This document shows, piece by piece, positions 20,733 through 46,004 of a stretch of DNA of 64,000 nt. The first letter of the stretch is position 1; every line of letters begins with the position of its first letter. The stretch comes from Tenuifilum thalassicum (GTDB lineage: Bacteria; Bacteroidota; Bacteroidia; Bacteroidales; Tenuifilaceae), in the NCBI RefSeq assembly GCF_013265555.1, contig NZ_CP041345.1, positions 2,278,581-2,342,580 of the forward strand, given 5' to 3'. The position numbers were made by a program, and so were the translations under genes. The notes below the pieces were generated by a model. The model worked only from the letters and a program-made list of their open reading frames with translations. It ran no database searches and was not told where the DNA came from.

Positions 20733-20756
20733 GAACAACCAAAAAAACTCAATCAT

Positions 20757-21089
20757 ATGATTAATGTTGAAAAGATAAATGATGCGCTTGTTATCTCGTT
20801 TACCGAGAATAGCAAGCTTAATGTAACCGTAACCCAAAAAATCAAATCAGAGGTTATCAATGTAATCACTCCTAACTCAAAGGTTGTGCTCAACCTTAAT
20901 GGAGTTAACTATATTGATAGCACTGGATTTGGAATGTTACTCTCAATTTTGCGTCATTGCAAAAACTCAGGCTCTAAACTTAAGATTTGCAATGTTAGCC
21001 CTGAAGTAATGGAACTTATAAAACTTTTACAACTCCAAACTGTTTTTGATATTAAAGATAGCGTTGACGACTGCATAAAAAGTTTTTAA
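20757..21089 (+). CDS. STAS-domain anti-sigma-factor antagonist
   Basis: 110 residues forming one STAS domain of the SpoIIAA/RsbV type. The regulatory serine is S55 in GVNYIDSTGFGMLLSILRHC; in this family it is phosphorylated by an RsbW/SpoIIAB-like kinase and dephosphorylated by a PP2C phosphatase. No kinase lies next to it. The window holds one RsbW-like ATPase at 36981-37394, a possible but unproven partner. Co-transcribed with the Hpt gene; a terminator follows. Confidence 0.88.
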   Translation: MINVEKINDALVISFTENSKLNVTVTQKIKSEVINVITPNSKVVLNLNGVNYIDSTGFGMLLSILRHCKNSGSKLKICNVSPEVMELIKLLQLQTVFDIKDSVDDCIKSF

Positions 21090-29297: not shown

Positions 29298-29786
29298 TTA
29301 CTGTTCTTCGTACTCTTTGATGATATCTTTCACACCATCGGGTGAAACGCGTCCGTAAACCTTTTCCCCAATTAGAACAACAGGTGCAAGTCCACATGCC
29401 CCAACACAACGTAAGCAGTTGAGCGAGAACTTGCCATCTGGGGTTGTTTCACCAACTTTAACATTAAGTATGCGCTTAAACTCATCGAGCACTTTTTCTG
29501 CACCACGCACGTAGCATGCTGTACCAGTACAGATGCTGATAGGATGCTTACCTTTTGGTATCATGGTGAAGAATGAGTAAAAGGTAACAACTCCGTAAAC
29601 CTTTGCTACTGAGACATTAAGTTCAGCAGCAACAACCTCCTGTACCTCGGCAGGCAGATAGCCAAAAGTTTCCTGAGTTTTGTGAAGAACGTTAATTAGT
29701 TCACCAGGGTCGTTATTAAACGACTTGCATATCTCTTTAATCTTGGCTACCTGTTCAGGCTTAAGCTCAAGTTTTATATGTGACAT
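29298..29786 (-). CDS. hydC: NuoE-like [2Fe-2S] hydrogenase subunit (operon 1)
   Basis: 162 residues. An N-terminal helical NuoE region (IKEICKSFNNDPGELINVLHKTQETFGYLPAEVQEVVAAEL) is followed by a thioredoxin-like [2Fe-2S] domain: ICTGTACYVRG supplies two cysteines and LNCLRCVGACGLAPVVLI two more. It shuttles electrons between the NADH-binding subunit and the catalytic subunit of a multisubunit NADH-linked [FeFe] hydrogenase. It is the last gene of the four-gene operon; hydA lies 13 nt upstream. Confidence 0.93.
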   Translation of the reverse strand: MSHIKLELKPEQVAKIKEICKSFNNDPGELINVLHKTQETFGYLPAEVQEVVAAELNVSVAKVYGVVTFYSFFTMIPKGKHPISICTGTACYVRGAEKVLDEFKRILNVKVGETTPDGKFSLNCLRCVGACGLAPVVLIGEKVYGRVSPDGVKDIIKEYEEQ

Positions 29787-29799
29787 TTGTTAATCCTCC

Positions 29800-31584
29800 C
29801 TATTTAATGTAGATATCTTTTTTCTTGTCGAAATAGTGTGTATGCAGCAAGTGATGCGCTTTTTCGCTCATTGGCTTACCTAAGAACTCTTCGTAAAGCT
29901 GTTTGATATAAGGGTTCTCATGCGATTTGCGAATTGGCTTGCCAGCATCTTCACGATAGATGGCTTCCATACGAGCCTTAATAATTGCGGAATTACCATG
30001 GTGTAATGGTTGACCACCACCACCGATACATCCACCAGGGCATGCCATTACCTCAATTGCATGGTAGTTTGCTTTACCTGAGCGAACATCCTCAAGTAGT
30101 TTACGAGCATTACCTAAACCATGAGCAATACCTATATTAATTGGCAAGCCATTGAAATCGATGGTAGCGGAACGAATTCCGTCCATTCCACGAAGTTCGG
30201 TAAAGTCGATTTTAGGAAGTGGTTTTCCAGTATAAACTTCGTATGCTGTACGAACAGCAGCTTCAATCACACCACCTGTTGCACCAAAAATTACACCAGC
30301 ACCTGTTGATTCACCTAGAGGACGGTCAAAATCCTCTTCGGGTAGCTCTTCAAAGTTAATGTTGAACTCCTTAATAAGATGAGCAAGCTCGCGAGTTGAG
30401 ATTGAGAAATCAACATCTGGGTTGTCATCAACCTTAAACTCATCGCGTTGGCATTCATATTTCTTAGCCAAGCATGGCATCACCGATACAACTACAAGTT
30501 CCTCACGTTTTTTACCAAGTTTTTCGGCAAAGTACGATTTTGCAATTGCACCAAACATTTGCTGAGGCGACTTAGCGCTTGAGGGAACATCGAGCATATC
30601 GGTAAAGTTGTGCTCAAAGAAGTTCACCCAACCAGGGCAGCAACTTGTAAGAATTGGGAGCTTAACATCCTTATCGCCATTCAAGAAACGAGTTAAACGA
30701 TCAAGAAGTTCGGTACCCTCTTCCATGATGGTTAGGTCGGCTGCAAAATCGGTGTCAAAGATGTAATCAAAACCAATTTGACGTAGAGCAGCTACCATTT
30801 TACCAGTAACCAGAGTACCAGGTTTCATTCCGAACTCTTCGCCTAAAGCAGCACGAACAGCAGGAGCAGTCTGAACTAGTACAGTTTTATTAGGATCGGC
30901 AATAGCTCTAATTACTTTAGCAGTATGGTCAACCTCGGTAAGTGCACCAGTAGGACATACTGCAACACACTGGCCACAGTAAGTACAAGGCGACTTTTCA
31001 AGATCCTGTTCAAAAGCAGGAGCAACTACAGCCATGAAACCACGGTTAACTGCGCTTAGCGCACCAACGGTTTGAACATCGTTACACATGGTTTCGCAAC
31101 GGCGGCACATGATACACTTGTCAACATCACGAATGATAGAAGGAGAAAAGTCCTTCTTATATGTTGACATCTCGGCATACTCCTGACCAGGAATTTCACG
31201 GATACCCAGTTTAATTGCCATATCCTGAAGGTCGCAACGGCCACTCTTTGCGCAGGTTAAGCAATCCTTTGGATGGTCGGAGAGAATAAGCTCCATAACA
31301 GTACGGCGAGCGTTAATTACACGCGAGGTGTGAGTTTTTACCACCATACCTTCGGCGCACTCAGTTGCACAGCTAGGTGCCAGGTTTCTACGACCTTCCA
31401 CCTCAACAACACAAATACGACAACCTGCTGGCTTATTCTCAACACCAAGGTCGTGAAGTTCCATGTAGCAAAGTGCAGGAATATCGATACCTAATTTCCT
31501 AGCAGCTTTATAAATTGTAGTACCCTTAGGTACTTCAACTTGTTTGTTATCTATTGTAAGTTTTACTGTTTCCATTGTTATCAC
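29800..31584 (-). CDS. hydA: NADH-linked [FeFe] hydrogenase catalytic subunit 1
   Basis: 594 residues, group A architecture. Order: a [2Fe-2S] ferredoxin domain (CYMELHD..GCRICVVEVEG..LAPSC), a His-ligated [4Fe-4S] motif (HPKDCLTCAKSGRCDLQ), two [4Fe-4S] clusters (CIMCRRCETMC; CTYCGQCVAVCPTGAL), the H-cluster domain and a small-subunit-like C terminus (NPYIKQLYEEFLGKP). H-cluster motifs are complete: TSCCPGW near 313, MPCLAKKYE, and MACPGGCIGGGGQP. It reduces protons or oxidises H2 using NADH and probably ferredoxin. An alternate start (METVKLT) lies three codons in. No hydEFG maturases are in the window. Confidence 0.97.
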   Translation of the reverse strand: MITMETVKLTIDNKQVEVPKGTTIYKAARKLGIDIPALCYMELHDLGVENKPAGCRICVVEVEGRRNLAPSCATECAEGMVVKTHTSRVINARRTVMELILSDHPKDCLTCAKSGRCDLQDMAIKLGIREIPGQEYAEMSTYKKDFSPSIIRDVDKCIMCRRCETMCNDVQTVGALSAVNRGFMAVVAPAFEQDLEKSPCTYCGQCVAVCPTGALTEVDHTAKVIRAIADPNKTVLVQTAPAVRAALGEEFGMKPGTLVTGKMVAALRQIGFDYIFDTDFAADLTIMEEGTELLDRLTRFLNGDKDVKLPILTSCCPGWVNFFEHNFTDMLDVPSSAKSPQQMFGAIAKSYFAEKLGKKREELVVVSVMPCLAKKYECQRDEFKVDDNPDVDFSISTRELAHLIKEFNINFEELPEEDFDRPLGESTGAGVIFGATGGVIEAAVRTAYEVYTGKPLPKIDFTELRGMDGIRSATIDFNGLPINIGIAHGLGNARKLLEDVRSGKANYHAIEVMACPGGCIGGGGQPLHHGNSAIIKARMEAIYREDAGKPIRKSHENPYIKQLYEEFLGKPMSEKAHHLLHTHYFDKKKDIYIK

Positions 31585-31589
31585 CCTAA

Positions 31590-33383
31590 TTATTTAATGC
31601 TGATAGCATCGAATTTACACTTCTCATAACATGCGCCACACTTAATACAAATTGCTGTATTGATTTCGTGTGGTTTTTTACGCTCACCGCTAATAGCGTT
31701 AACAGGACAGTTCCTAGCACAAGCTGTACAACCCACGCAGGCCTCTGGGTCAATTACATATTTCATTAATGATTTACATTGACCTGCAGGACACTTCTTA
31801 TCTTCAACGTGAGCAACGTACTCATCGTAGAAGTTATCGAGTGTAGAAAGTACAGGGTTTGGCGAAGTTTGTCCTAAACCGCAAAGTGAGGTATCCTTAA
31901 TAACTTGAGATAGGTTACGTAGACGCTCAAGATCTTCCATAGTACCTTCACCTTTAGTGATGCGGTCGAGCAACTCGTAAAGGCGTTTGTTACCGATACG
32001 ACAGGGTGAACACTTACCACAACTTTCCTCAACGGTAAAATCGAGATAGAACTTGGCAACCGAAACCATACAGTCGTCTTCGTCCATTACAATCATACCA
32101 CCAGACCCCATCATCGATCCAGCAGCAACTAGGTTGTCAAAATCGATTGGTGTATCAAGGTGACTCTCTGTTAAGCAGCCACCCGAAGGTCCACCAGTTT
32201 GAACTGCTTTAAATTTCTTGCCATTTTTAATACCACCACCAATTTCGAAGATAACTTCGCGTAGGGTGATACCCATTGGAACCTCAATAAGACCAACATT
32301 GTTTATTTTACCAGCAAGAGCGAACACCTTAGTTCCCTTGCTCTTCTCAGTTCCAATTGAAGAGTACCAGTCGGCACCTTTTAGAATGATTGGAGGTACG
32401 TTGGCATATGTTTCAACGTTATTAACGTTGGTTGGTTTTCCCATATAACCACTCTGTGCAGGGTAAGGAGGTTTATTGCTTGGCTCACCGCGTAAACCTT
32501 CCATTGAGTGGATTAGAGCAGTTTCCTCACCACAAACAAAGGCACCTGCACCATAGCGAAGTTCTAAATCGAAGCTAAAACCAGTGCCAAATATATCGTT
32601 TCCTAGCAATCCATATTCACGAGCCTGCTCAATTGCTATTTTTAGACGATTAATAGCGAGAGGATATTCAGCACGGATATAGATAAGACCTTTTGAAGCA
32701 CCAATACAATAGCCGCAGATAGCCATGGCCTCAATTACAGAGTGAGGGTCGCCTTCAAGAATTGAACGGTCCATAAAAGCACCAGGGTCACCCTCATCGG
32801 CATTACAAACCACATATTTTTGGTCTGCCTGATTTTTGCTAGCAATTTCCCATTTTAAGCCAGTGGGGAAACCACCACCTCCACGACCACGTAGGCCAGA
32901 TTTCTTAATTACCTCAATTGTCTCCTGAGGAGTATATTCGGTTAAAACTTTTCCTAATGCCTGATAACCATCACGAGCAATATATTCATCAATATTCTCA
33001 GGGTTGATGAAACCGCAGTTACGAAGCGCAATACGCATTTGTTTGCGGTAAAAGCCCATTTGCTTTGAGTCCTCAATTGTTTCTTTTTTGGTAGGATCTA
33101 TATAAAGCAGGCGTTCAACTTTACGTCCCTTAATCACGTGCTCCTTAACAATTTCAGAAGCATCCTCAGGTTTTACTTGAGTATAGAAAGTATTATCGGG
33201 TAGTACCTTAACAATTGGACCTTTCTCGCAAAAGCCAAAACATCCAGTCAAAATAACTTGAACATCTTCCTGAAGGTTATTGGCAGCAAGTTCGGCTTTT
33301 AGTTTTTCTGCTATTGCATCGCTTGCAGAGGCTTTACAACCTGTTCCCCCACAAATTAGCAGGTGCATTTTATACTTTGACAT
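31590..33383 (-). CDS. hydB: NuoF-like NADH-binding hydrogenase subunit (operon 1, long form)
   Basis: 597 residues. The N-terminal thioredoxin-like [2Fe-2S] domain has all four cysteines (LLICGGTGCKAS, ILTGCFGFCEKGP). The central NADH/FMN domain shows GLRGRGGGGFPTGLKWE, YVVCNADEGDPGAFMDR and GAGAFVCGEETALIHSMEG, with SLBB and a [4Fe-4S] site SCGKCSPCRIG. Two C-terminal ferredoxin clusters follow (CVGCTACARNCPV, CIKCGACYEKC). This is the flavin subunit thought to carry out electron bifurcation in HydABC-type enzymes. It follows the small Fe-S gene by 20 nt. Confidence 0.95.
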   Translation of the reverse strand: MSKYKMHLLICGGTGCKASASDAIAEKLKAELAANNLQEDVQVILTGCFGFCEKGPIVKVLPDNTFYTQVKPEDASEIVKEHVIKGRKVERLLYIDPTKKETIEDSKQMGFYRKQMRIALRNCGFINPENIDEYIARDGYQALGKVLTEYTPQETIEVIKKSGLRGRGGGGFPTGLKWEIASKNQADQKYVVCNADEGDPGAFMDRSILEGDPHSVIEAMAICGYCIGASKGLIYIRAEYPLAINRLKIAIEQAREYGLLGNDIFGTGFSFDLELRYGAGAFVCGEETALIHSMEGLRGEPSNKPPYPAQSGYMGKPTNVNNVETYANVPPIILKGADWYSSIGTEKSKGTKVFALAGKINNVGLIEVPMGITLREVIFEIGGGIKNGKKFKAVQTGGPSGGCLTESHLDTPIDFDNLVAAGSMMGSGGMIVMDEDDCMVSVAKFYLDFTVEESCGKCSPCRIGNKRLYELLDRITKGEGTMEDLERLRNLSQVIKDTSLCGLGQTSPNPVLSTLDNFYDEYVAHVEDKKCPAGQCKSLMKYVIDPEACVGCTACARNCPVNAISGERKKPHEINTAICIKCGACYEKCKFDAISIK

Positions 33384-33403: not shown

Positions 33404-33802
33404 TTATTTGTTATCAATTGACTCGTAGTTCACAGGAATAATTCCATCTACTAGTTCGCCATTCTTAATATACTTCTCAATTATCTCGTCGGCTTTTTTG
33501 GTATCAACATAACCAAAAACAACGGGATCGGCATTTGGAAGTTTAACCTCAATGGTTGGTTCTGCATAGCAGTAACCCATACATCCAGTTTGAGTTACAA
33601 CTGCATTTACACCACGTTTTTCGAGTTCCTCTAAAAGGAAATCCATCACATTCTTAGCACCAGAGGCTATACCGCAGGTAGCCATAGCCACCTTGATTTG
33701 AACGAGATTCTCAGCCGAATCGCCTTTCTCCCTAAGGTCGATTTTTGACTGAAGGGTCTCCTTCATTTTCTTAAGATCGGCAAGCGATTTTACTTTTGTC
33801 AT
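33404..33802 (-). CDS. HndB-like (2Fe-2S) ferredoxin-fold subunit
   Basis: 132 residues: a helical N terminus, then a thioredoxin-like fold with VAMATCGIASGAKNV and VVTQTGCMGYCYAEPTIEV. Three cysteines are at expected ligand positions; the second ligand of the usual CxxxxxxxC pair is not seen, as seems common for HndB-type proteins (from memory, not checked). It probably holds or docks a [2Fe-2S] cluster in the hydrogenase complex. It is first in operon 1, directly behind the promoter and the Rex-like palindrome. The second hydrogenase operon lacks this gene. Confidence 0.85.
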   Translation of the reverse strand: MTKVKSLADLKKMKETLQSKIDLREKGDSAENLVQIKVAMATCGIASGAKNVMDFLLEELEKRGVNAVVTQTGCMGYCYAEPTIEVKLPNADPVVFGYVDTKKADEIIEKYIKNGELVDGIIPVNYESIDNK

Positions 33803-33861: not shown

Positions 33862-33869
33862 CAAAAATA
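33862..33869 (-). promoter_or_regulatory. Promoter -7 box (TATTTTTG) of hydrogenase operon 1
   Basis: Minus-strand TATTTTTG is an exact TAnnTTTG match, 60 nt before the HndB-like start. A TTG about 21 nt upstream falls inside the palindrome at 33878-33895. Confidence 0.6.
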
Positions 33870-33877
33870 GAAATCAA

Positions 33878-33895
33878 TTGTTAACCGATTAACAA
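33878..33895. promoter_or_regulatory. Rex-like operator TTGTTAA-CCGA-TTAACAA
   Basis: A perfect 7-bp inverted repeat with a 4-nt spacer, identical in form to the clostridial consensus of the NADH-sensing repressor Rex. It covers the -33 region of the operon 1 promoter, so a bound repressor would block RNA polymerase when NADH/NAD is low. No rex gene lies in the window. Confidence 0.65.
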
Positions 33896-33909: not shown

Positions 33910-34464
33910 TCAACCTAAATCTGTTATTTGTAATTCGTCTAAATTTGAATAGATGAATTCTTTTACAATGGGATATACCTGTGGGTTGTTCAATGGTATG
34001 CCATCTAGAGCTTTACTAATATCAGAAGAAGAGACTTCAAAAAGTTCATTTTCCTTTTTAACTCTGATTTTAAATTCAATGGCGGGGTACGAGCATATTA
34101 AAAGCGCAAAAGTACCTGCTATATCGCCAAGGGGTAAACAGTCTATATTTGATGGGATAAAACGAGCTAATAGTTCAGTTCCTTGGCCCAATTGCGAATC
34201 AATACTAAAGGATCCTCCGGTGAGTTCTGCATTTTGTTTTAGCAATGGAATGCCTAATCCTACTTTTCGGGTAGTACGTGTGGTAGTAAATGGGTCAGTA
34301 ACATATTTTAGGAACTCGGAGTCCATCCCTTTTCCGTTATCCTTAACAGCTAGCTTAATATAATCTTTTTCAGTGTCAATATCAAGGTTTATTTCGATAA
34401 CTGAAGAATTGGCAGAAACAGAATTCTGGACTATATCAAGGATATGAAGCGATAAATCTTTCAC
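33910..34464 (-). CDS. Histidine-kinase-like ATPase of the hydrogenase regulatory block
   Basis: 184 residues. A GHKL ATPase fold: N box DIVQNSVSANSSVIEI, G1 box VKDNGKGMD, and KVGLGIPLLKQNAELTGGSFSIDSQLGQGTEL. There is no sensor, membrane or typical DHp phospho-acceptor domain, though SLHILDIVQNS near residue 5 places a His before the N box. The C-terminal 80 residues are not recognised. It is the last gene of the regulatory block before hydrogenase operon 1. Similar ATPases accompany bifurcating hydrogenases in Firmicutes and Thermotogae (established association, function unknown). Confidence 0.82.
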   Translation of the reverse strand: MKDLSLHILDIVQNSVSANSSVIEINLDIDTEKDYIKLAVKDNGKGMDSEFLKYVTDPFTTTRTTRKVGLGIPLLKQNAELTGGSFSIDSQLGQGTELLARFIPSNIDCLPLGDIAGTFALLICSYPAIEFKIRVKKENELFEVSSSDISKALDGIPLNNPQVYPIVKEFIYSNLDELQITDLG

Positions 34465-34511
34465 GGTTAACTACTAGTTTATAAAGGATTTAAATAATTC
34501 AAATAAACACG

Positions 34512-35252
34512 CTATTGGAAGGGGTAAACAAAAGCCCCATTCTTTTTATCGAAGGCATCGCGCAAACCAGCCAACGAAATATCATTTATCTCATACTCTG
34601 TATATATCTCTCCAACCTGATGAATGTAATGGGCATCGGAATTACGAATAAAAGTCTTGGAAGATTCTATCCTATTATGGCTACAAAAATCGCTCACCTT
34701 CGAATTCTTTGAAATCTCAAGAGCATCGAATTTCAAATCTGGTGGAATAAAACCAAGCTGACTGGTAAGGCTATACTTAAGTCTATCGACATGTGCTGGG
34801 ATGAATATCCCCTGAATTGATTGTAAAAATTCAGACACCTCATTTATGCTCTTATTTAATGCAGCATGAAGGTAGTAATCAACCTCTTGGATTATCTCTT
34901 CCTGCTCATTCACCACAACCTGATAACCAAACACATCGGGTTTGTTTGATATTTTCAAAATGTTATTCTCAATGAAATCCTGCAGGGCAACTCTTTGATT
35001 CTCGGTTTCAACTATACAGAGGCAATGTATTTCTTCCTTTGATGTTATCTCTGCACCATACAAGCAATGAATGCCATGCCTTTTAGCCAATTCTTTAGTC
35101 AATGGGCCATGTAAAGTGCTGTTATGATCGGCAATGGCTATAAGTTGAAGGTTATTGGCTAAAGCTCGATTAACTATATTCACCGGACTCATTTCCAAGT
35201 CGGCACATGGTGAAATTACCGAATGAATATGTAAATCGGCTTTTACCCTCAT
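34512..35252 (-). CDS. PHP-domain metal-dependent phosphoesterase
   Basis: 246 residues. The PHP metal motifs are clear: KADLHIHSVISPCADLEMSP at the N terminus, AIADHNSTLHGP, CLYGAEITSKEEIHCLCIV, IPAHVDR and NSDAHYIHQVGE. PHP proteins hydrolyse phosphoesters with three metal ions. In this block it may act as a phosphatase opposing the kinase-like ATPases, but the substrate is unknown. Its start overlaps the DRTGG protein stop by 1 nt, so the two are translationally coupled. Confidence 0.88.
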   Translation of the reverse strand: MRVKADLHIHSVISPCADLEMSPVNIVNRALANNLQLIAIADHNSTLHGPLTKELAKRHGIHCLYGAEITSKEEIHCLCIVETENQRVALQDFIENNILKISNKPDVFGYQVVVNEQEEIIQEVDYYLHAALNKSINEVSEFLQSIQGIFIPAHVDRLKYSLTSQLGFIPPDLKFDALEISKNSKVSDFCSHNRIESSKTFIRNSDAHYIHQVGEIYTEYEINDISLAGLRDAFDKKNGAFVYPFQ

Positions 35253-35590
35253 TACTTTTTATTGATAAGATTGTAAAGCCTGCCACTAATTTCAAAAGCC
35301 TGCAGTTCTGTTGATAAAATGGGAATATTTTCCTCATTACTTTTATCGGCCGTATTGGCATCGGGTTCAAGCCCTTTTACCAAAATTATGGCTGCCAAAT
35401 CTTTTAGCGAGGCAACGGCAATAGTATTAATGTGTGTTTGAAGGGTAATCCAAACAGCACCTGCTGGGGCATTTCCCATCACATCGCTTAGCAAATCGGA
35501 TGTATAGCCTCCAGTTACCTCGTTATCAAGGCCATTATGGCCTGAACACACTTTCAGGTTCAAAGCCTCAGAAATATCTTTAACAGTCAT
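35252..35590 (-). CDS. DRTGG domain protein (copy 2)
   Basis: A single-domain DRTGG protein, 112 residues from MTVKDISEALN; an in-frame ATG at 35620 would add 10 residues and overlap the HydS-like stop. Visible: LKVCSGHNGLDNEVTGGYTSDLLSDVMGNAPAGAVWITLQTHINTIAVASLKDLAAIILVKG. The fold binds nucleotide or ligand in other proteins (e.g. next to CBS domains) and probably acts as a small sensor module. A paralogue (copy 1) opens the same block at 37394-37738. Confidence 0.85.
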   Translation of the reverse strand: MTVKDISEALNLKVCSGHNGLDNEVTGGYTSDLLSDVMGNAPAGAVWITLQTHINTIAVASLKDLAAIILVKGLEPDANTADKSNEENIPILSTELQAFEISGRLYNLINKK

Positions 35591-35600
35591 ATTGAGAATT

Positions 35601-36977
35601 CTATTTAATGGGTTTATCACAATCCTTTTTAAACCTGTTTTCGCCCCAAATCTTTTTCATAATTCGAAAAGAGTGCTCTGGATTAAGCTTATTATTCTCC
35701 ATAATCTTTTGCAGGAAAACGCATTGCGACAGAGCACCATTTCCCTGTACGATATCTTCGGCTAGGGCAACACACGATGGGGCACCACAAACACCACAAT
35801 CGATACCAGGCAAGTAACACATTAAACGATTAACACGTTCCATCTTCCCCATGGCTCGAACCATATCCTCATCAAGTTTTAGCATTGAACGTGGCTTAAG
35901 TGGTTTTAAATTGGCAATATCTTCTACTCTCTTCTGGTAATCTTTAATCCTCGACATGCTTTGATCTATGCTCCAAACCACCTTGCTATTAGCATCGCGC
36001 AACATGTTTTCGGCAGTAAGAAAGCGATTACCTGGGGCTAGTATTCCACCAGCACAACTCTCATCACAAGCTCTCAGTTCCAAATAATCAACACCAGTGA
36101 GCTCTTCATTTTCTACCATTTCCAAGAATTCTATAACATTCCAGATCCCATCGATAGCCAAAGCTTTACCATGAATGCTTGCAGCCTCGCCTTTTGTCAG
36201 AGCCCACGAACTCGATCTCAGCCCAAGGCTGGGTTTGCTATCAGGTTCACCATTTTTATCATTGTTACCATTACTTAACACCTTCAGAATCTTGTTATAG
36301 ATAAAATCCATGTTGATGATTCCAGTAACATCGGAGCTATCGTCGCCTTCTGGTCGACGGACTGCTACAATTTTAGCGGCGCAAGGTGTGACATAGAAAA
36401 TTCCAATATCGCTATTGTGATTCCCCTCCTCTATATATTTAGATTTGACGTATGAGGCAGTCAAATCAATTGGAGGGCGAATAAGGGCAATATTATCAAC
36501 AAGTGATGGAAATTTTACCTGAATCAATCGTACAATAGCAGGGCAAAATGAGGAAATAACGGGTTTATGCGAAGCATTTTTGGTATACTCATTAATTTTG
36601 GTTACTAAGTAATCAACAGAATCCTCAACTGGCCAAACATCAGTAAATCCAATAGTAATTAATGCCCTGTGAACATCGTTTTGAGAAAAACTGCTAGAGA
36701 ATTGTCCATAAAGAACTGAAGGAATGAGCGCAATGCGAACTTTGTAGTTAAATATCTGGCTAAAATCGTCTTGTTCAATACTAATTGCATGAGTAGGGCA
36801 TACCCTATAGCATTCACCGCAATCAATACAACGATTGTTTATAAGCTCCGCCTTCCCATTTCTGACCCTAAGAGCTTCGGTAGGGCAAGCCCTCATGCAG
36901 TGCGAGCAACCAATACACAAATCGGTTTGTATATTTAATGCATGGTAGAACTCGCTACTACTTTTCATTTTCATCAC
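35601..36977 (-). CDS. HydS-like putative sensory [FeFe] hydrogenase
   Basis: 458 residues. Two N-terminal [4Fe-4S] clusters (C21-C31, C50-C60) precede a divergent H-cluster domain. L1 reads SSFCPAI (F144, C145), L2 TPCAAK (C199), L3 RACDESCAGG (C304, C308). All four cluster-ligand cysteines remain, but the proton-relay Cys of catalytic enzymes is Phe and the GGGxP tail is lost. A C-terminal Cys cluster (C394, C397, C402, C419; DCGVCGAPSC) resembles the RnfB/CO-dehydrogenase-type Fe-S domain. These traits match putative sensory groups C/D such as HydS, so it probably detects H2 or redox state rather than making H2. Confidence 0.85.
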   Translation of the reverse strand: MMKMKSSSEFYHALNIQTDLCIGCSHCMRACPTEALRVRNGKAELINNRCIDCGECYRVCPTHAISIEQDDFSQIFNYKVRIALIPSVLYGQFSSSFSQNDVHRALITIGFTDVWPVEDSVDYLVTKINEYTKNASHKPVISSFCPAIVRLIQVKFPSLVDNIALIRPPIDLTASYVKSKYIEEGNHNSDIGIFYVTPCAAKIVAVRRPEGDDSSDVTGIINMDFIYNKILKVLSNGNNDKNGEPDSKPSLGLRSSSWALTKGEAASIHGKALAIDGIWNVIEFLEMVENEELTGVDYLELRACDESCAGGILAPGNRFLTAENMLRDANSKVVWSIDQSMSRIKDYQKRVEDIANLKPLKPRSMLKLDEDMVRAMGKMERVNRLMCYLPGIDCGVCGAPSCVALAEDIVQGNGALSQCVFLQKIMENNKLNPEHSFRIMKKIWGENRFKKDCDKPIK

Positions 36978-36980
36978 TCT

Positions 36981-37394
36981 TTACTTAAGATTAACCTCAA
37001 ATTCCAACCTTGTTCCAACATCAATAACGCTAGAGATCTTCATCTTATCTGTATTTTCTTTGATATTGGGCAAGCCCATTCCAGCGCCAAACCCCATTTC
37101 ACGAACTATATTAGAGGCAGTTGAGAATCCTGGTTTCATTGCCAAATCAATATCAGGAATACCTGGACCGATATCATCAAGCACTACTTTAATTTTATCC
37201 GCATCGATATCGACATAAATCTTTCCCTGAAAAGCATGGGCAACAATATTAACCTCGCCTTCGTAAAGGGCAACAACAACCCGTTTTATAATAGCCGGAG
37301 GGACATTAAGGCGCTTAAGCACTTTTTTAACCTGGCTTGAAGCCTGGCCTGCTCTCACAAAATCGCCACCCTGAACTTTATATTCTAACTTCAT
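36981..37394 (-). CDS. RsbW-like anti-sigma-factor-type ATPase/kinase
   Basis: 137 residues with a GHKL ATPase fold of the serine kinase type: N box VVVALYEGEVNIVAHAFQ, G1 box LDDIGPGIPDIDLAMKPG, and FGAGMGLPNIKENTDKMKISS. RsbW-type kinases phosphorylate STAS antagonists or bind sigma factors; neither partner is next to it. It lies between DRTGG copy 1 (1-nt overlap) and the HydS-like gene (3-nt gap), so all three are co-translated, suggesting it takes signal from or feeds signal to that sensor. Confidence 0.85.
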   Translation of the reverse strand: MKLEYKVQGGDFVRAGQASSQVKKVLKRLNVPPAIIKRVVVALYEGEVNIVAHAFQGKIYVDIDADKIKVVLDDIGPGIPDIDLAMKPGFSTASNIVREMGFGAGMGLPNIKENTDKMKISSVIDVGTRLEFEVNLK

Positions 37395-37738
37395 TAATAC
37401 ACAGGTTTTAAACCTTTCCCGTAAAGTACGCCAGAAGCCCTAAACATCGTATAGGGGCTCTCAATAAGGACAATCCCATTCTCCTCGGCAAGCCTAATCA
37501 TATCCTGACTAATAGTTTTGCCTCGCACAAACACTACAGCCAGAATATCAGCCATCTCTGCGGTTCTAACAGCTTGCATGTTAGCCAAACCAGTAATCAG
37601 AACCAGTCTATCTTTGCTTACAGTAAGCACATCGCTCATCAGGTCTGAGGCAAAAGCGTACTCAACATCCTGCTCAAGGCCATCGGGACAACAAACAACA
37701 CTTCCCTCGATTAAATCGGCTAGTTCCTTTAATTTCAT
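37394..37738 (-). CDS. DRTGG domain protein (copy 1)
   Basis: 114 residues from MKLKELADLIEG; a TTG three codons earlier (37747) lies inside the -7 box and is rejected. The DRTGG-type core is CCPDGLEQDVEYAFASDLMSDVLTVSKDRLVLITGLANMQAVRTAEMADILAVVFVRGK, clearly paralogous to copy 2 (same ASDLMSDV / TSDLLSDV step). It is the first gene of the regulatory block, with the promoter only a few nucleotides upstream. Probably a ligand-sensing module; the ligand is unknown. Confidence 0.85.
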   Translation of the reverse strand: MKLKELADLIEGSVVCCPDGLEQDVEYAFASDLMSDVLTVSKDRLVLITGLANMQAVRTAEMADILAVVFVRGKTISQDMIRLAEENGIVLIESPYTMFRASGVLYGKGLKPVY

Positions 37739-37744
37739 TATAGA

Positions 37745-37752
37745 CAAATATA
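37745..37752 (-). promoter_or_regulatory. Promoter -7 box (TATATTTG) of the hydrogenase regulatory block
   Basis: Exact TAnnTTTG on the minus strand, ending 6 nt before the ATG of DRTGG copy 1. The mRNA would be leaderless or nearly so. Confidence 0.6.
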
Positions 37753-37984
37753 ATTTTTGTTAGCTCAACTACTCTTAACCATTTACGCCTCAAATATACG
37801 TTATTTTATTAACATTGTTATCTTTTTCACACACATAATACACCTGTCTGATTTTCTACAAAATACGCTTTCCTGGCTTCACCGAACAAAACAAGTTACG
37901 AAAAAAATTGTATGAAGAATATTTAATCATACTTTAAGCATCATTTTGTTCATTAATAGTTCGCATTTAAGTGAGTTAAAGAAT

Positions 37985-38014
37985 AAAACAAAGGGTGTCC
38001 AAAACTAGACACCC
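37985..38014 (-). terminator. Terminator of hydrogenase operon 2
   Basis: Minus strand: GGGTGTC and GACACCC arms, 8-nt loop, then TTTGTTTTATTC, 30 nt after the hydA2 stop. Confidence 0.8.
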
Positions 38015-38043
38015 CTCATTGAAATTAAATCAATGCTATTTGA

Positions 38044-39834
38044 CTAGTAACGCTGACGCTCTTTGTAGTGGGTATGGAGCAGTTCATGCGACTTGTGGCT
38101 GTTAGGCTCACCAAGGAACTCCTTGTAAATGGCAAGAACTTCAGGGTTCTCATGAGATTTACGAATTGGCATACCCTCGTCCTCACGATATATAGCCTCG
38201 GCACGCTTTTTACGAATTTCCTCGTTAGTTGGGATTGGCTGTCCGCCACCACCGATACATCCACCAGGGCACGCCATTATCTCAATGAAGTGCCAATTTG
38301 CCTTTCCATCGCGAACGGCATCCATAACCTTTTTGGCATTGGTTAAACCATGAGCTACTACCGTTTTAAGCTCTGCACCCTCAAGGAAGCTCCACTCTGG
38401 CTTGGTTCCTTCAATCTTAACAGCAGCCTCACGTACGCCATCCATACCACGAACTGGAGTGATGTTAAGCCCATCGAAAGGCACCTCTCTTCCAGTAACC
38501 ACCTCATAAGCAGTTCTTAAAGCAGCCTCCATAACACCACCAGTTGCACCAAATATAACAGCAGCCCCTGTTGAAGCCCCCATTACGCTATCGTAATGCG
38601 ACTCAGGCAACGAGGCAAAATCGATACCAGCCTGTTTGATCATAATAGCTAGCTCGCGGGTAGTAAGAACATAGTCCACATCCTTATAACCGCTAGAGCG
38701 CATTTCAGGGCGATCGGCCTCAAACTTCTTAGCAGTACAAGGCATTATGGAAACAGAAACAATTTTGGCAGGGTCAAGGTTTCGTTTTTGGGCGTAATAT
38801 GTTTTGGCTAGGGCGCCAAACATTTGTTGGGGTGATTTACAGGTTGAAAGGTTGTCGAGGTATTCGGGATAGGTATGCTCAATAAACTTTATCCAACCTG
38901 GAGAGCAGCTAGTAGCCATTGGCAGTCGAACATTCGGATCTTTATCTACCAACGCTTTCTTAAGGCGGCCAAGTAACTCAAAGCCCTCTTCCATAATGGT
39001 AAGGTCGGCTGAAAAATCGGTATCAAGCACTGAATCGAAGCCTAAACGTTTAAGAGCGGTAACCATTTTACCTGTTACAATTTCGCCAGGCTCCATACCT
39101 AGAGCCTCACCTAGAGCAACCCTAACAGCAGGTGCTGTTTGAACTACCACATGCTTATCCTCATCAAAGATGGCTTGCCATACCTCGTCAACATAGTTGC
39201 GTTCAACTAATGCGCCAGTTGGGCAACGGTTAACGCACTGACCGCAATTGGTACAAACCACCTCGAACATTGGATTCTCAAAGAAGGTGGAAATCTTCAT
39301 TTTATCACCCTTATAGGCTACCCCAAGCGCGCTAACATGCTGGAGTTCCTCGCAAGTACGAACACAACGCTGACAACGAATACACTTGCTGTCGTCCTTT
39401 ATAATTGAAGGAGAGTATGCATCCATTTGGTAGTTCTTATGAGGCACCAAATCGATAAACATGGGCTCAGAAATTTTATATTCTGCAGCAAGCTCCTGAA
39501 GTTCACAATTACCATTCTTATAACAGGTTGTACACTTAGCGTTGTGCTCTGAGAGCAAAAGGTCAATGATGTGCTTACGAGCGGTACGCACCTTAATAGT
39601 ATTAGTTTGGATTTCCATACCTTCGGCAACAGGCATTGCGCAGGATGCAGGAAGAGTTCTAGAACCCTTCATTTCAACCACACACACACGACAGTTCCCT
39701 GCAACGCAAAGGTCGTCGTGATAGCATAGAGTGGGAATGTGAATGTTTAATTTCTTGGCAGCCTGCAAAATGGTAGTGCCCTCATCAACTGTAATAGGCA
39801 TGCCGTCGATTGTGAGATTTATCTGTTTAGCCAT
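38044..39834 (-). CDS. hydA: NADH-linked [FeFe] hydrogenase catalytic subunit 2
   Basis: 596 residues, paralogous to the first HydA over its length. Domains: [2Fe-2S] (CYHDDLCVAGNCRVCVVEMKG), His-ligated [4Fe-4S] (HNAKCTTCYKNGNCELQ), two [4Fe-4S] (CIRCQRCVRTC; CTNCGQCVNRCPTGAL), the H-cluster domain and the small-subunit C terminus (NPEVLAIYKEFLGEP). L2 (MPCTAKKFE) and L3 (MACPGGCIGGGGQP) are normal. L1, near residue 306, reads TSCSPGW: the second Cys of TSCCPGW, an H-cluster [4Fe-4S] ligand in structures, is Ser (TCT codon). It is the last gene of operon 2. Confidence 0.95.
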   Translation of the reverse strand: MAKQINLTIDGMPITVDEGTTILQAAKKLNIHIPTLCYHDDLCVAGNCRVCVVEMKGSRTLPASCAMPVAEGMEIQTNTIKVRTARKHIIDLLLSEHNAKCTTCYKNGNCELQELAAEYKISEPMFIDLVPHKNYQMDAYSPSIIKDDSKCIRCQRCVRTCEELQHVSALGVAYKGDKMKISTFFENPMFEVVCTNCGQCVNRCPTGALVERNYVDEVWQAIFDEDKHVVVQTAPAVRVALGEALGMEPGEIVTGKMVTALKRLGFDSVLDTDFSADLTIMEEGFELLGRLKKALVDKDPNVRLPMATSCSPGWIKFIEHTYPEYLDNLSTCKSPQQMFGALAKTYYAQKRNLDPAKIVSVSIMPCTAKKFEADRPEMRSSGYKDVDYVLTTRELAIMIKQAGIDFASLPESHYDSVMGASTGAAVIFGATGGVMEAALRTAYEVVTGREVPFDGLNITPVRGMDGVREAAVKIEGTKPEWSFLEGAELKTVVAHGLTNAKKVMDAVRDGKANWHFIEIMACPGGCIGGGGQPIPTNEEIRKKRAEAIYREDEGMPIRKSHENPEVLAIYKEFLGEPNSHKSHELLHTHYKERQRY

Positions 39835-39856: not shown

Positions 39857-41020
39857 TTAGTAAATCATCTCCTCCTTAAAGTTCTCAACAATAGAGAAGA
39901 AAGAGTTTGCAACACTTTGTCCTAGACCGCACTTAGCAGTTATCTTCATGGTTTGAGCGAGTTTTTGAAGCTGTTCAAGATAATTTGCATGCTTTTCGCC
40001 TTTTTTCACAGCCTCAATACCGAGCTTAAGTTGTTGGCACCCCACACGGCAAGGGGTACACTGACCGCAAGACTCCTCCTCAAAGAACTCTAGGTAGTTA
40101 TGGAGTACGTTAAACATTGAGCGCGAGCTATTAAAAAGCATCATAGAACCTCCAGTAGGCACGCCCTCAAAACCGATTATGGTGTCTTTGAATTTCTTAC
40201 GAGGAACACAAAAACCGGAAGCACCACCAACCTGAACTGCTTTTGTATCGCCATCGCCAAACTCCTCAACGAATTGCTCAACGGTCATACCCAGCTCCAA
40301 CTCATAGATACCAGGTTTGGGGGTATCGCCTGAAACAGAGAAAACCTTAGAACCGCGAGAGTCAGCAGTACCAAGCTCTTTGAATTTGCGGGCTCCATAA
40401 CGGAAAATCATAAAGGAGTACACAAGGGTTTCAACGTTATTGATAACTGTTGGCTTTTTACGAAAACCAGAAACAGTAGGATAAGGAGGCTTGTTGCGAG
40501 GCTCACCCCTGTCGCCCTCCATTGATTCGAATAAAGCACTCTCTTCGCCACATATATACGCACCGCTTCCCATAATAATTTTAATGCGGAAAGGGATTTT
40601 CATTTCGTCAAGCAAGGCGTGAAAAACTTCGAGCTGGCTTTCTAGCTCTTTTAAGAGGAAACGATACTCGCCTCTCAGGTAGATATAGCCTTCTTTTGCG
40701 CCAATTGCTTTTGCACAAATGGCCATTCCTCCAAATACCTTCATGGGAACCTGGAATAGTATTTCACGATCCTTAAAGGTACCAGGCTCACCCTCATCGG
40801 CATTACACACCACGTACTTTTCGGGATCGGGTTGTTCGGCTGTAAACTTCCACTTCAGAGCGGTTGGGAAACCAGCGCCTCCCCTACCCTTGAGGCCAGA
40901 CTCAAGGAGTTCGTTGATAATTTCGTCGTTACTCTTTTGGTAAGCTGACTGTAAGACCTGTTTAAAGTCGCAATCCTTATCAAAAATCAGGTCAACGCGA
41001 CGTAAGAAATTATTTGACAT
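39857..41020 (-). CDS. hydB: NuoF-like NADH-binding hydrogenase subunit (operon 2, short form)
   Basis: 387 residues: only the NADH/FMN core (SGLKGRGGAGFPTALKWK, YVVCNADEGEPGTFKDRE, GSGAYICGEESALFESMEG), an SLBB-like part and one [4Fe-4S] site (SCGQCTPCRVGC). It lacks the N-terminal thioredoxin-like [2Fe-2S] domain and the C-terminal two-cluster ferredoxin domain of the operon 1 subunit. Electron routing therefore differs between the two enzymes. It sits between hydC (14-nt gap) and hydA (22-nt gap). Confidence 0.94.
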   Translation of the reverse strand: MSNNFLRRVDLIFDKDCDFKQVLQSAYQKSNDEIINELLESGLKGRGGAGFPTALKWKFTAEQPDPEKYVVCNADEGEPGTFKDREILFQVPMKVFGGMAICAKAIGAKEGYIYLRGEYRFLLKELESQLEVFHALLDEMKIPFRIKIIMGSGAYICGEESALFESMEGDRGEPRNKPPYPTVSGFRKKPTVINNVETLVYSFMIFRYGARKFKELGTADSRGSKVFSVSGDTPKPGIYELELGMTVEQFVEEFGDGDTKAVQVGGASGFCVPRKKFKDTIIGFEGVPTGGSMMLFNSSRSMFNVLHNYLEFFEEESCGQCTPCRVGCQQLKLGIEAVKKGEKHANYLEQLQKLAQTMKITAKCGLGQSVANSFFSIVENFKEEMIY

Positions 41021-41034
41021 AATCGAATCTCCTT

Positions 41035-41499
41035 TTACTTTTTAATGTACTCACTAATAATTTCACGAACTTTCTCTGGAGTAAGTTCTGTGTAAGCCTC
41101 ATCGTTAATGAGCATAGCAGGTCCCTTATGACACCAACCTAAACAGTTAGTTTCAAGCAAGGTGAACTTCCTGTTGGAAGTGGTTTCGCCCACTTTAATC
41201 TTGAGTAAATCCTCAATCTCCTGAATAATCAAATTTTTACCCTTCATGGAACAGGAGATTGTGCGACAAACGCGAATCACATACTTACCCCTTGGTTGGG
41301 TGTCAAGAAAAGAATAGAAGGTAGCAGTCCCATACACTTTGGCTGCTGACATGTCGAGCTCACGCGCTATTTCTGACATTGCCTCGCTCGAGATGTAGCG
41401 TTCTTCCTGAACCACACCTTGTAGGATAGGAATCAAACTCTCCCTTGTCCGCCCATACTTGTCGGCAAGAGTTTTCACTAATTCTTTGGTATCCGTCAT
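41035..41499 (-). CDS. hydC: NuoE-like [2Fe-2S] hydrogenase subunit (operon 2)
   Basis: 154 residues: helical N terminus (KYGRTRESLIPILQGVVQEERYISSEAMSEIARELDM), then a thioredoxin-like [2Fe-2S] domain. Ligands are visible in VCRTISCSMKG and ETNCLGWCHKGPAMLI. It passes electrons between the NADH subunit and hydA. First gene of operon 2, behind a TATCTTTA -7-like box and two Rex-like palindromes. Confidence 0.93.
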   Translation of the reverse strand: MTDTKELVKTLADKYGRTRESLIPILQGVVQEERYISSEAMSEIARELDMSAAKVYGTATFYSFLDTQPRGKYVIRVCRTISCSMKGKNLIIQEIEDLLKIKVGETTSNRKFTLLETNCLGWCHKGPAMLINDEAYTELTPEKVREIISEYIKK

Positions 41500-42806: not shown

Positions 42807-43868
42807 TTAGGCTCCGGGGATAAACCTTATGGCACTTGCTTTTATTGAGGCGAATAGTTCAACTCCCGGCTCAATATTTAGTTTTTCCTTTGATTCCCAT
42901 GTTATGTGAGCATGAATTCTAAAGCCACAATCGAGGACTACCTCATAGCCATAGGGCTGAGCAAAAACATCTACAACCTTTCCTTTAAAAATATTTAAAG
43001 CACTTTGCTCTGATATGGTGTGAGCAAGAACTACTGCAGCCTCAGAAAAAAGAATATAACCTGACTTGTAATTACTATTGGCAAAAAACGCTATCTTATG
43101 ATTATTGGTAATATTCCCAATCACTAGCCCATGTTGGGAATCAGAGGTTTGTTCTACTTTAAAAAAATTCCTTGCCCCAGTAAAATGGGCAACAAAATCG
43201 TTGTTTGGGTTTTGAAAAACCTTTAAGGTTTCGCCTACTTGAACTAGGGAGCCATTTCTTATAACACCAACCCTGTTTGCTAACGTGATTGCCTCATCAA
43301 AGCTGTGGGTTACATGAATCATGGTTGTTCCATTTCTATTTAACTCACGCAGCAACGCACTTATTTCAAGATGCAAGCTTGTGTCTAATGCAGAAAGGGG
43401 CTCGTCGAGTAAAAGGACCCTAGGATTAAGAGCAAGAGTACGCGCCATGGCAACTCTCTGTAGTTCACCACCAGAGAGATTTCTAGTATCTCTTTTTATG
43501 ATATTAGAAATAGAAAACCTTTCTGCCAATTCATGTACGCGCTTTTTTACACTTTTTGATTCGAGTCCTTTCACTTTAAGGGGATATGCAATGTTGTCGA
43601 AAACATTCATATGTGGAAAAATGGCCAGGTCCTGAAATAGGATTCCCAACTGACGCTGCCCTACTGGTTCATGCGTAATATTTTTCCCATCAAGAAACAC
43701 CCTGCCTTTATCGGGAGAAACTAATCCAACTAGAACCTTTAACAAGATTGATTTTCCAGAGCCAGAAGGTCCTAGCAAAACGAAGTAATCGCCCTGATTA
43801 ACCCTAAATGAAATGTCGGCTAACTTAAAAGTTGGAAATGACTTTGATATCTGATCTGCAATAAGCAT
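42807..43868 (-). CDS. wtpC: Tungstate/molybdate ABC transporter ATP-binding protein
   Basis: 353 residues: ABC ATPase core with Walker A LLGPSGSGKSILLK, Q-loop LFQDLAIFPHMNV, signature NLSGGELQRVAMARTLA, Walker B VLLLDEPLSALD and the switch VTHSFDEA. The C-terminal region (residues 230-353) is a regulatory OB/TOBE-like domain (VDVFAQPYGYEVVLDCGFRIHAHIT), as in ModC/WtpC. It powers oxyanion import at the inner membrane. Last of the four-gene operon; the permease lies 3 nt upstream. Confidence 0.88.
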   Translation of the reverse strand: MLIADQISKSFPTFKLADISFRVNQGDYFVLLGPSGSGKSILLKVLVGLVSPDKGRVFLDGKNITHEPVGQRQLGILFQDLAIFPHMNVFDNIAYPLKVKGLESKSVKKRVHELAERFSISNIIKRDTRNLSGGELQRVAMARTLALNPRVLLLDEPLSALDTSLHLEISALLRELNRNGTTMIHVTHSFDEAITLANRVGVIRNGSLVQVGETLKVFQNPNNDFVAHFTGARNFFKVEQTSDSQHGLVIGNITNNHKIAFFANSNYKSGYILFSEAAVVLAHTISEQSALNIFKGKVVDVFAQPYGYEVVLDCGFRIHAHITWESKEKLNIEPGVELFASIKASAIRFIPGA

Positions 43869-43871
43869 AGA

Positions 43872-44666
43872 TTACCTTTTTCGCGATAAAAGTCTTAAAA
43901 AGACAAAAACAAAAAGTGAAATAGATAGGAAAACAATAGCAGCAGGGCGAGCATATTTTAGCCCAAAGGTAGTAAACCTATCATATATCATAACAGAAGC
44001 CACCATAGGATGGTAAGCAACAATAACCACGGCGCCAAATTCGCTTAGCCCTCTTGCAAACATCATAACAAAGCCAGTCAATATGTTTCGGAATGCCAAC
44101 GGCAACGAGATGGTATAAAAGACCTTGAATGGACTTGCACCAAGAGTCAACGCTGCTTGTTCTAACTTAACAGGCACTTGCAGAAATCCATCTCTTGCTG
44201 CATTAACCAGGAATGGTAAGCTTACAAACGCCATAGCAACAGCAATTGCCACTGGTGTTCCAATAAGATTAACCCCTAAAACACTCATTGCATTTCCAAT
44301 AATGCTATCGCCACTGATAATTCCAATTAATGCGATACCCGCAACGGAATGAGGTATAACAACTGGCAAATCGACAAGCCCATTGATTAATCCCTTTAAA
44401 GGAAAATCGTAACGGGCTAACAAATAGGATAAAGGGATTGCAGGTATAGCAAAAAAAACAGTTGCAATAGCGGATATCGAGATTGAAAGCCAAATGGAAT
44501 GAAGTACTTGGCTTTCATTTGCCGTTGCAGCAATATCCTTAAATGGAGTATGAACAACCATGCCAACCAAAGGTGCAACAATAAAAAGAATTACAATGGA
44601 GCTAAGAAGCATCAATGCTAACCTAAATGGAGAAAACTGTTTGGTCATGCCAGCCAATTGCATCAC
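43872..44666 (-). CDS. wtpB: Tungstate/molybdate ABC transporter permease
   Basis: 264 residues with about six membrane spans. The inner-membrane-component signature is present in AALTLGASPFKVFYTISLPLAFRNI (EAA loop, contact site for the ATPase). It resembles ModB/WtpB: RLALMLLSSIVILFIVAPL, PLVGMVVHTP, RYDFPLKGLINGLVDLPVVIPHSVAGIALIG. It forms the membrane channel of the oxyanion importer and overlaps the wtpA stop by 1 nt. Confidence 0.88.
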   Translation of the reverse strand: MMQLAGMTKQFSPFRLALMLLSSIVILFIVAPLVGMVVHTPFKDIAATANESQVLHSIWLSISISAIATVFFAIPAIPLSYLLARYDFPLKGLINGLVDLPVVIPHSVAGIALIGIISGDSIIGNAMSVLGVNLIGTPVAIAVAMAFVSLPFLVNAARDGFLQVPVKLEQAALTLGASPFKVFYTISLPLAFRNILTGFVMMFARGLSEFGAVVIVAYHPMVASVMIYDRFTTFGLKYARPAAIVFLSISLFVFVFLRLLSRKR

Positions 44667-45622
44667 TAATTCATTTTAGCAAACTTCAAAAACTCCTTGG
44701 GTACTTCACCACATCCATCAGGGTTAAATGGGACTAACACGTTCTGCCCCATTGCTTCAACGATACTAAGTCCACCATTTTTGGAAAGGAAGAAGCTAGC
44801 AAACTTTTGAGCAAGTTCAGCATTTGGTGCATTTGTTGGAATAGTAAATGCATATAAAATGGGCTCACCATGAATGGACAAAACCTCATCGGGTTTTGAG
44901 CCTTTAATTTGAGTAGAAACGCTTGAATAATAGTCGGATAAATCAGGATTGCCTAAGTTAATAGAATCTGGGAGGGACAGGAAAGACAAGTCATGCTGCA
45001 AGGCAACAGATTCATAGATAAAGAAATAATCGATAGCTCCGGCCTCAAGCAAGGCAATTAAATCAACCTCTTTGGGACGAATATACTTATTGTCTTTAGC
45101 AAGAATTTGGCTTGCAACACCTGTGCGTGAATAATACTTCTCTGCCAGCTCAAGCAACAGAACCGTGCGGTATCCACAAGGGTCATTGTTTGGATCGCTC
45201 CGACCATATCTTACATCTTGGTTAAGCAAAATATCAATCCAGCTATCGGCGCTAATTGAATCTGCTAATCTTGAATCGGGGCGGTAGGCCACAACCATTT
45301 TATTGCTTGCAAAAGGGATGAAATAAGTAGCATACTCAGTAAGGAGTAGATTCTTAATTACGTTATAATCTGCTGAGAAAAACAAATCACACTTGCGCCC
45401 GAGTTCAGTAATTTTTCTTGAACACTCAACACTTCCTGCGGATTCTAGGACGACCTGCACTCCTGGATTGGCCTTCATAAAGCTATCGGCAGCGGCCTTC
45501 AGTGGCAAGGAAAGGCTCCCTGCATGAAATATAGTAATTGTATTACTTTTATCGCTACTGTTACATCCAAGCAAGAACAGCAATAAAGGAAGGACTAAAA
45601 CATTTACCTTTTTCATTATCAA
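44666..45622 (-). CDS. wtpA: Tungstate/molybdate-binding lipoprotein
   Basis: 318 residues. Signal peptide with lipobox (VLVLPLLLFLLGCN). The mature part matches WtpA/ModA-like oxyanion-binding proteins: ITIFHAGSLSLPLKAAADSF, ESAGSVECSRKITELGRKCDLFFSADY, RYGRSDPNNDPCGYRTVLLLELAEKYY, and the GAIDYFFIYESVA segment. The DPCGYR form is typical of the WtpA class, which prefers tungstate, so tungsten enzymes (e.g. formate or aldehyde oxidoreductases) may exist elsewhere in the genome. Anchored outside the inner membrane. Confidence 0.88.
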   Translation of the reverse strand: MIMKKVNVLVLPLLLFLLGCNSSDKSNTITIFHAGSLSLPLKAAADSFMKANPGVQVVLESAGSVECSRKITELGRKCDLFFSADYNVIKNLLLTEYATYFIPFASNKMVVAYRPDSRLADSISADSWIDILLNQDVRYGRSDPNNDPCGYRTVLLLELAEKYYSRTGVASQILAKDNKYIRPKEVDLIALLEAGAIDYFFIYESVALQHDLSFLSLPDSINLGNPDLSDYYSSVSTQIKGSKPDEVLSIHGEPILYAFTIPTNAPNAELAQKFASFFLSKNGGLSIVEAMGQNVLVPFNPDGCGEVPKEFLKFAKMN

Positions 45623-45623
45623 G

Positions 45624-46004
45624 CTACTGATTTATTGTTTGAAAAAATTTCTTAACAACTCTCTTTACCGATTCATCAAACTCATCGCGTAGCTGGCGGT
45701 AGGCATTTACAAGTAGCTTTCCATCGTTGGTCATTTCGGATTTTCCTCCTTGGCTACCACCACGCGACTTAACAACTAAAGGGAAGCCTAGTTCCTCCTC
45801 AGCCCGTTTTACCAGCTCCCAAGCTTTACGGTAACTTATTTGCATTTTTTTAGCTGCAGCAGAAATGGACTCCAGCTCATCGATATTCAACAAAAGGCAA
45901 AGCTGCTCATTAGACAGAAAGAGCTCATCATCCTGTCGATGACGAAGAAAGATTGAGTAATCAAGAAAAACGTCGTAATACTTTGAACCCTTTGGACCAG
46001 CCAT
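45624..46004 (-). CDS. ModE-like winged-helix regulator
   Basis: 126 residues, equal to the N-terminal DNA-binding half of ModE: SISAAAKKMQISYRKAWELVKRAEEELGFPLVVKSRGGSQGGKSEMTNDGKLLVNAYRQL. It has no molybdate-binding MopB/TOBE domain, so it may sense metal through another protein or act without ligand. It starts the wtp operon (1-nt gap to wtpA). An inverted repeat GCGATA/TATCGC overlaps its start region and could be its own operator. Confidence 0.87.
   Translation of the reverse strand: MAGPKGSKYYDVFLDYSIFLRHRQDDELFLSNEQLCLLLNIDELESISAAAKKMQISYRKAWELVKRAEEELGFPLVVKSRGGSQGGKSEMTNDGKLLVNAYRQLRDEFDESVKRVVKKFFQTINQ

Follow-up and report, generated by a model that had tools for sequence, protein, structure and literature searches.

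A conserved six-gene set around a group D HydS, a putative regulatory module for the bifurcating hydrogenase of Tenuifilum thalassicum

The closest described systems are the group D (M2e) [FeFe] hydrogenases, putative sensory enzymes whose hydS gene is already known to lie upstream of the genes for a trimeric bifurcating hydrogenase, with a GHKL ATPase nearby. The biochemically studied member, TamHydS of Thermoanaerobacter mathranii, lacks the proton-transfer cysteine and both methionines, and it catalyses H+/H2 interconversion with low turnover and high H2 affinity (PMC8163306). H2 does not reduce its C-terminal cluster (PMC13104023), and its authors posed as an open question how a group D sensory hydrogenase transduces a signal without a PAS domain (PMC8163306). 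Cthe_0335 of C. thermocellum and Csac_1857 are likewise group D enzymes, and T. maritima has been reported with a HydS of a different type, group C (M2f) (PMC3561251). By the published C. thermocellum gene numbers, Cthe_0338-0342 form the bifurcating hydrogenase, and Cthe_0339, inside this run, is annotated as a histidine kinase. Within the literature we searched, we found neither an experiment on in vivo H2 sensing by any group D HydS nor a paper joining DRTGG, hydrogenase and PHP domain. How H2 controls bifurcating hydrogenases is relevant to fermentation and to the H2 balance of gut and rumen.

T. thalassicum is a fermenting Bacteroidales bacterium in which HydABC, the main hydrogen-producing enzyme, is probably tuned by the module described here. 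The window is a stretch of 64,000 nucleotides from its genome, a single 3.2-Mb contig. As an earlier note on this DNA had stated, six genes lie between two hydrogenase operons, and all the open reading frames are present in the order given there: DRTGG1 (D1), a SpoIIAB-like ATPase (RW), HydS, DRTGG2 (D2), a PHP protein and a GHKL ATPase (HK), all on the minus strand (Table 1). The flanking operons are of the hydC-hydB-hydA type (41499-38044), divided from the module by a strong intrinsic terminator, and of the trx-hydB-hydA-hydC type (33802-29298), 107 nt beyond HK. The packing is tight, as that note had described, and conserved, but of the five junctions only two show a 1-nt overlap (TAATG), the one between DRTGG1 and the ATPase gene at 37394 and the one between DRTGG2 and PHP at 35252; PHP and HK are separated by 47 nt. 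Homologues place the start of DRTGG1 at ATG 37738, not at 37747 or 37752, and that of DRTGG2 at ATG 35590. We propose with moderate confidence that these genes form a regulatory module for the bifurcating HydABC under Rex control, with the group D HydS as its H2/redox sensor.

Table 1. Features of the hydrogenase region, in window coordinates.
Feature	Position	Strand	Remarks
HydC/NuoE-type subunit, upstream hydrogenase operon	41035..41499	-	NuoE family match
HydB/NuoF-type subunit, upstream operon	39857..41020	-	
Catalytic [FeFe] hydrogenase HydA, upstream operon (NCBIfam A6, NADH-dependent)	38044..39834	-	NF040763, 905 bits, cut-off 765
Intrinsic terminator, ends upstream operon	37987..38020	-	15 pairs, T tail
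Rex-like operator upstream of module, imperfect	37815..37832	.	3 mismatches to strict palindrome, 2 if G allowed at variable position
Putative Bacteroidetes-type -7 element of module, TATATTTG	37791..37798	-	read from sequence
DRTGG1 (D1), 114 aa	37394..37738	-	SDLMSD motif invariant
SpoIIAB/RsbW-like GHKL ATPase (RW), 137 aa	36981..37394	-	E45/N49, G1 and G2 boxes invariant (59 sequences)
Group D (M2e) [FeFe] hydrogenase, putative H2 sensor HydS	35601..36968	-	alternative starts GTG 36977 or ATG 36974 possible
DRTGG2 (D2), about 112 aa	35252..35590	-	SDLLSDVMG motif invariant
PHP metallophosphoesterase	34512..35252	-	metal-ligand positions all invariant; EndoQ-like fold
GHKL ATPase (HK)	33910..34464	-	MutL/GyrB-like fold, no histidine phosphoacceptor domain
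Perfect Rex-type palindrome TTGTTAATCGGTTAACAA overlapping hydABC promoter	33878..33895	.	sole exact match in 3.2-Mb genome
Putative Bacteroidetes-type -7 element of trx-hydBAC operon, TATTTTTG	33862..33869	-	read from sequence
Thioredoxin-like [2Fe-2S] ferredoxin (Trx), hydABC operon gene 1	33404..33802	-	
HydB (FMN/NADH, Fe-S)	31590..33383	-	
HydA, catalytic [FeFe] subunit of bifurcating-type hydrogenase	29800..31584	-	
HydC [2Fe-2S] subunit	29298..29786	-	

The hydrogenase-like protein agrees with the sequence criteria for group D (M2e) taken from PMC8163306 wherever these can be applied, so that the earlier suggestion of a HydS-like sensory hydrogenase is well founded at the level of class, the sensing role being putative. 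It comprises two N-terminal [4Fe-4S] motifs and the H-domain (Pfam Fer4, Fe_hyd_lg_C and FeS), and a Pfam search found no PAS domain in it; kinase and phosphatase domains are lacking too. Across 20 aligned HydS sequences the four H-cluster cysteines (C142, C196, C301 and C305) are invariant. The proton-transfer cysteine (Cys299) is absent from every one of them, with TSCCP changed to SFCP at L1, where the variable residue is F or Y, or A in a clostridial relative. At L2, MPC has become TPC (the Met353 position), and nearly all of the 20 carry Thr or Ser there. The C-terminal Cx2Cx4Cx16C is exact (C391-C394-C399-C416), and the gene lies upstream of those for a trimeric bifurcating hydrogenase. 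The domain plan, the lost cysteine, Ser/Thr at Met353, the C-terminal motif and the lack of a PAS domain are shared with TamHydS, Cthe_0335 and Csac_1857 (PMC8163306, PMC13104023, PMC3561251), whereas the second methionine (Met497 position) is replaced by Arg in the Tenuifilum protein and by Leu in TamHydS. We infer that the Tenuifilum HydS senses H2.

In a tree of 13 HydS rows together with enzymes of groups A, B and C, HydS branches as a clade of its own (support 100/100). Group C enzymes (the kinase-fused C1 type, and the C3 type with PAS domain and SpoIIE phosphatase, such as the HydS of R. albus) resemble it in the H-domain and Fe-S plan and in putative H2 sensing by hydrogenase genes. 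They differ in forming a separate clade with their own PAS, kinase or phosphatase partner, and in having Gly, where the motif was read, at the Met353 position. Eight Fe_hyd_lg_C genes occur in the genome; among the group C enzymes they encode, one carries a histidine kinase fusion, and SpoIIE phosphatase genes adjoin those of two others.

The gene preceding hydS encodes a GHKL ATPase for which SpoIIAB (TIGR01925, E 8.9e-13) is the closest relative with a name. Its E45, N49, D74, G76, G78 and G103-G107 are invariant in 59 sequences, i.e. the ATP and catalytic boxes are intact, and like the SpoIIAB/RsbW anti-sigma kinases it has the GHKL fold, the catalytic Glu/Asn pair and a small partner gene directly upstream. 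These features would suit classical partner switching, in which the protein is an anti-sigma factor with sigma and STAS partners elsewhere. However, its score of 48.3 bits lies far under the equivalog cut-off of 135, and a search for a STAS antagonist or sigma gene next to it within the module found none. The genome holds only two STAS genes, one of them stand-alone behind an Hpt gene (20370-21089), 13 kb from the module. We thus judge the classical sigma/STAS switch highly improbable.

The second GHKL protein was described in the earlier note as a histidine-kinase-like ATPase and counted as a kinase, a label that did not survive. The protein begins at the N box and consists of HATPase_c/HATPase_c_3 only; a HisKA/DHp phosphoacceptor domain was sought and is not present, so we dropped the histidine-kinase assignment. 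Its model (pLDDT 90) folds most like MutL/GyrB, superimposing on MutL/PMS2 with Z 13.5 and an rmsd of 2.2 over 126 residues, and GyrB also scores high. Kinase activity of either ATPase is hypothetical. In one homologous locus (L119, 10619-11899), PHP and HK are fused into one reading frame.

The two DRTGG genes of the module are the only ones in the genome, and each product carries an invariant polar motif, SDLMSD in DRTGG1 and SDLLSDVMG in DRTGG2. The PHP protein has both the fold and the metal-binding residues of a PHP phosphoesterase, with H8, H10, D42, H43, E68, H76, H154, D206 and H208 invariant. Its model (pLDDT 97) matches best the nucleic-acid enzyme EndoQ (TM 0.74), and the fold of RNase AM is also alike; the earlier idea that it is the phosphatase of the kinases is therefore doubtful. 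DRTGG domains occur in nucleotide-regulated enzymes. Taken with the preserved metal ligands, the EndoQ- and RNase AM-like fold and the invariant DRTGG motifs, this would fit a nucleotide signal that PHP makes or degrades and the DRTGG proteins bind, gated by HydS via the ATPases. We consider such signalling distinctly unlikely, as the module contains no nucleotide cyclase or synthetase and PHP is missing from a three-gene core (L110/L111, see below) and from some other loci.

Both promoters of the region carry Rex-type sites. The sites TATATTTG and TATTTTTG, which we take to be -7 elements from the Bacteroidetes consensus, mark the promoters of the module and of trx-hydBAC, respectively; scans for sigma-70 promoters in the region did no better than shuffles, as expected for promoters of the Bacteroidetes type. 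The palindrome TTGTTAATCGGTTAACAA overlaps the second of these promoters. With at most two mismatches, a Rex-like site is found upstream of D1 in 48% of 118 homologous loci and ahead of the second operon in 58% of 36 loci, compared with 2% in shuffled sequence, 2.9% in AT-rich control windows and 1-2% inside the module. The genome encodes a rex gene, which belongs to one of two other hydrogenase clusters with one-mismatch Rex-type sites nearby. The palindrome and the enrichment imply that the redox repressor Rex probably controls transcription of the module and of hydABC by binding these sites. The earlier note had seen no transcription or sigma factor and so named no output; the module indeed contains no regulator, but the Rex-type operators at its promoters supply part of the answer. 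T. mathranii hydS differs in this respect, having an adjoining AraC-type regulator.

The six-gene set is a conserved and largely all-or-none unit in Bacteroidales and in one clostridium. The intact order is found in 50 of the 58 Bacteroidales loci sampled, so the tight packing is not due to chance, and in 42 of the 58 the module runs directly into trx-hydB. Among 295 genomes of the order, HydS occurs in 83, a close HydA in 112, and both in 80; the resulting table (80/3/32/180) gives a Fisher p of 1.5e-41, uncorrected for relatedness and inflated, like the mirror-tree values below, by adjacency and shared ancestry. The tie to the bifurcating hydrogenase assumed in the earlier note is thus upheld by adjacency and by co-occurrence in 80 of the 83 HydS genomes.

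That note had also mentioned similar sets in Firmicutes and Thermotogae. The former holds: Subdoligranulum (Clostridia, L246) has all six genes and hydABC in a rearranged order, in which HK lies within a HydC-HK-Trx-HydB-HydA run and the remaining five genes are divergent from it, and Cthe_0335-0342 fits the same layout as judged by the published gene numbering. For the latter, the HydS reported from T. maritima is of a different type, group C. In C. thermocellum, too, a kinase-annotated gene is tied to hydABC, inside the hydABC run, whereas its Bacteroidales counterpart is the last gene of the module and precedes trx-hydBAC.

The position of HK within these clostridial runs, its MutL/GyrB-like fold and its lack of a phosphoacceptor domain lend some weight to a different role, in which the GHKL ATPases are ATP-driven conformational clamps (MutL/GyrB/Hsp90-like) that mature or gate HydABC, and HydS is an accessory electron-transfer or H-cluster subunit, not a sensor. 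HydABC evidently works without the six genes, however, because HydS is absent from 32 of the 112 genomes with a close HydA, and in 23 of the 26 hydABC loci that lack HydS and extend at least 2 kb upstream, no gene of the set is found nearby (of the other three, two miss just HydS and one retains only D2 and HK). The low turnover and high H2 affinity of HydS-type enzymes also fit a sensor better, and we regard the clamp role as unlikely.

In two loci (L230, about 14463-15535, and L234, 4474-7104) HydS is cleanly gone from between RW and D2, and D1, RW, D2, PHP, HK and hydABC are kept. In a third (L221, 5161-6287) only D2, with a degraded SDLLSD, and HK are left upstream of hydABC. The first two losses count against the sensor model, as do the placement of the module away from hydABC in some genomes and on a Parabacteroides distasonis record, and the C-terminal cluster of TamHydS that H2 does not reduce. 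The losses would agree with HydS being just a slow catalytic enzyme whose gene happens to lie beside those for HydABC, the remaining genes being unrelated riders, as would the H+/H2 interconversion catalysed by TamHydS. With the proton-transfer cysteine gone from all aligned HydS sequences, the gene order strictly conserved across Bacteroidales and the same six genes in a clostridium, we find this quite improbable.

A three-gene core of DRTGG, RW and HydS, at 31% identity, adjoins hydCB in L110/L111. The best 80 matches of a scan of genome contigs are all from Bacteroidota; phyla beyond Bacteroidota were sampled through a plasmid collection, and a search of viral contigs for relatives gave none. 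Mirror-tree partial correlations join HydS with RW (0.29) and D1 (0.23), and HK with PHP (0.27) and D2 (0.21), in a table that recovers HydA-HydB at 0.40; the resulting groups {D1, RW, HydS} and {D2, PHP, HK} are suggestive only, because neighbouring genes may share history.

For the module with HydS as sensor, we envisage that the H-cluster binds H2 or becomes reduced as H2 and reduced carriers accumulate, and that this state would be handed by protein contact to the adjoining SpoIIAB-like ATPase and its small partner DRTGG1. Contact is proposed because HydS itself is devoid of PAS, kinase and phosphatase domains. Given the question of PAS-less signalling raised for TamHydS and its C-terminal cluster that H2 does not reduce, such a relay is a reasonable guess rather than a result. 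The second arm, DRTGG2, PHP and the MutL/GyrB-like ATPase, which is most closely tied to the hydABC operon, may complete the response, its likeliest target being HydABC itself, in activity or assembly; Rex would separately set transcription of the module and hydABC according to NADH/NAD+. A more specific version, which we offer tentatively and consider rather unlikely, pairs DRTGG1 with the SpoIIAB-like kinase and DRTGG2 with the MutL-like ATPase in a STAS-free switch, with the H2-sensing hydrogenase governing whether the conserved SD-L-SD serines become phosphorylated or bound. If true, a gas-sensing signal relay of an undescribed class would act directly on the bifurcating enzyme.

The two DRTGG proteins, the SpoIIAB-like and MutL/GyrB-like ATPases and the EndoQ-like PHP enzyme are thus candidate signalling partners of a group D HydS; in the literature searched we came across neither the six-gene unit nor its Rex-type operators nor the fold corrections. 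The set is testable, since Parabacteroides distasonis, a culturable gut species, also has the six genes (L247, 8200-11971), annotated by domain only, beside gyrA and without hydABC nearby. Its record is labelled a plasmid but looks chromosomal.

Some further genes were noted in T. thalassicum. Genes for a molybdate-type ABC transporter and a ModE-like regulator adjoin the hydrogenase region at 42807-46004. A second hydrogenase cluster (L063, 3079-15097) comprises rex, response regulators, a kinase-fused HydS (C1), a third hydABC, and a PAS-HydS with a SpoIIE phosphatase, and has a one-mismatch Rex-type site between divergent operons. A third (L064, 11053-16636) encodes a Rex-like CoA-binding-domain protein, a PAS-HydS, a SpoIIE phosphatase and a group B-like hydrogenase.
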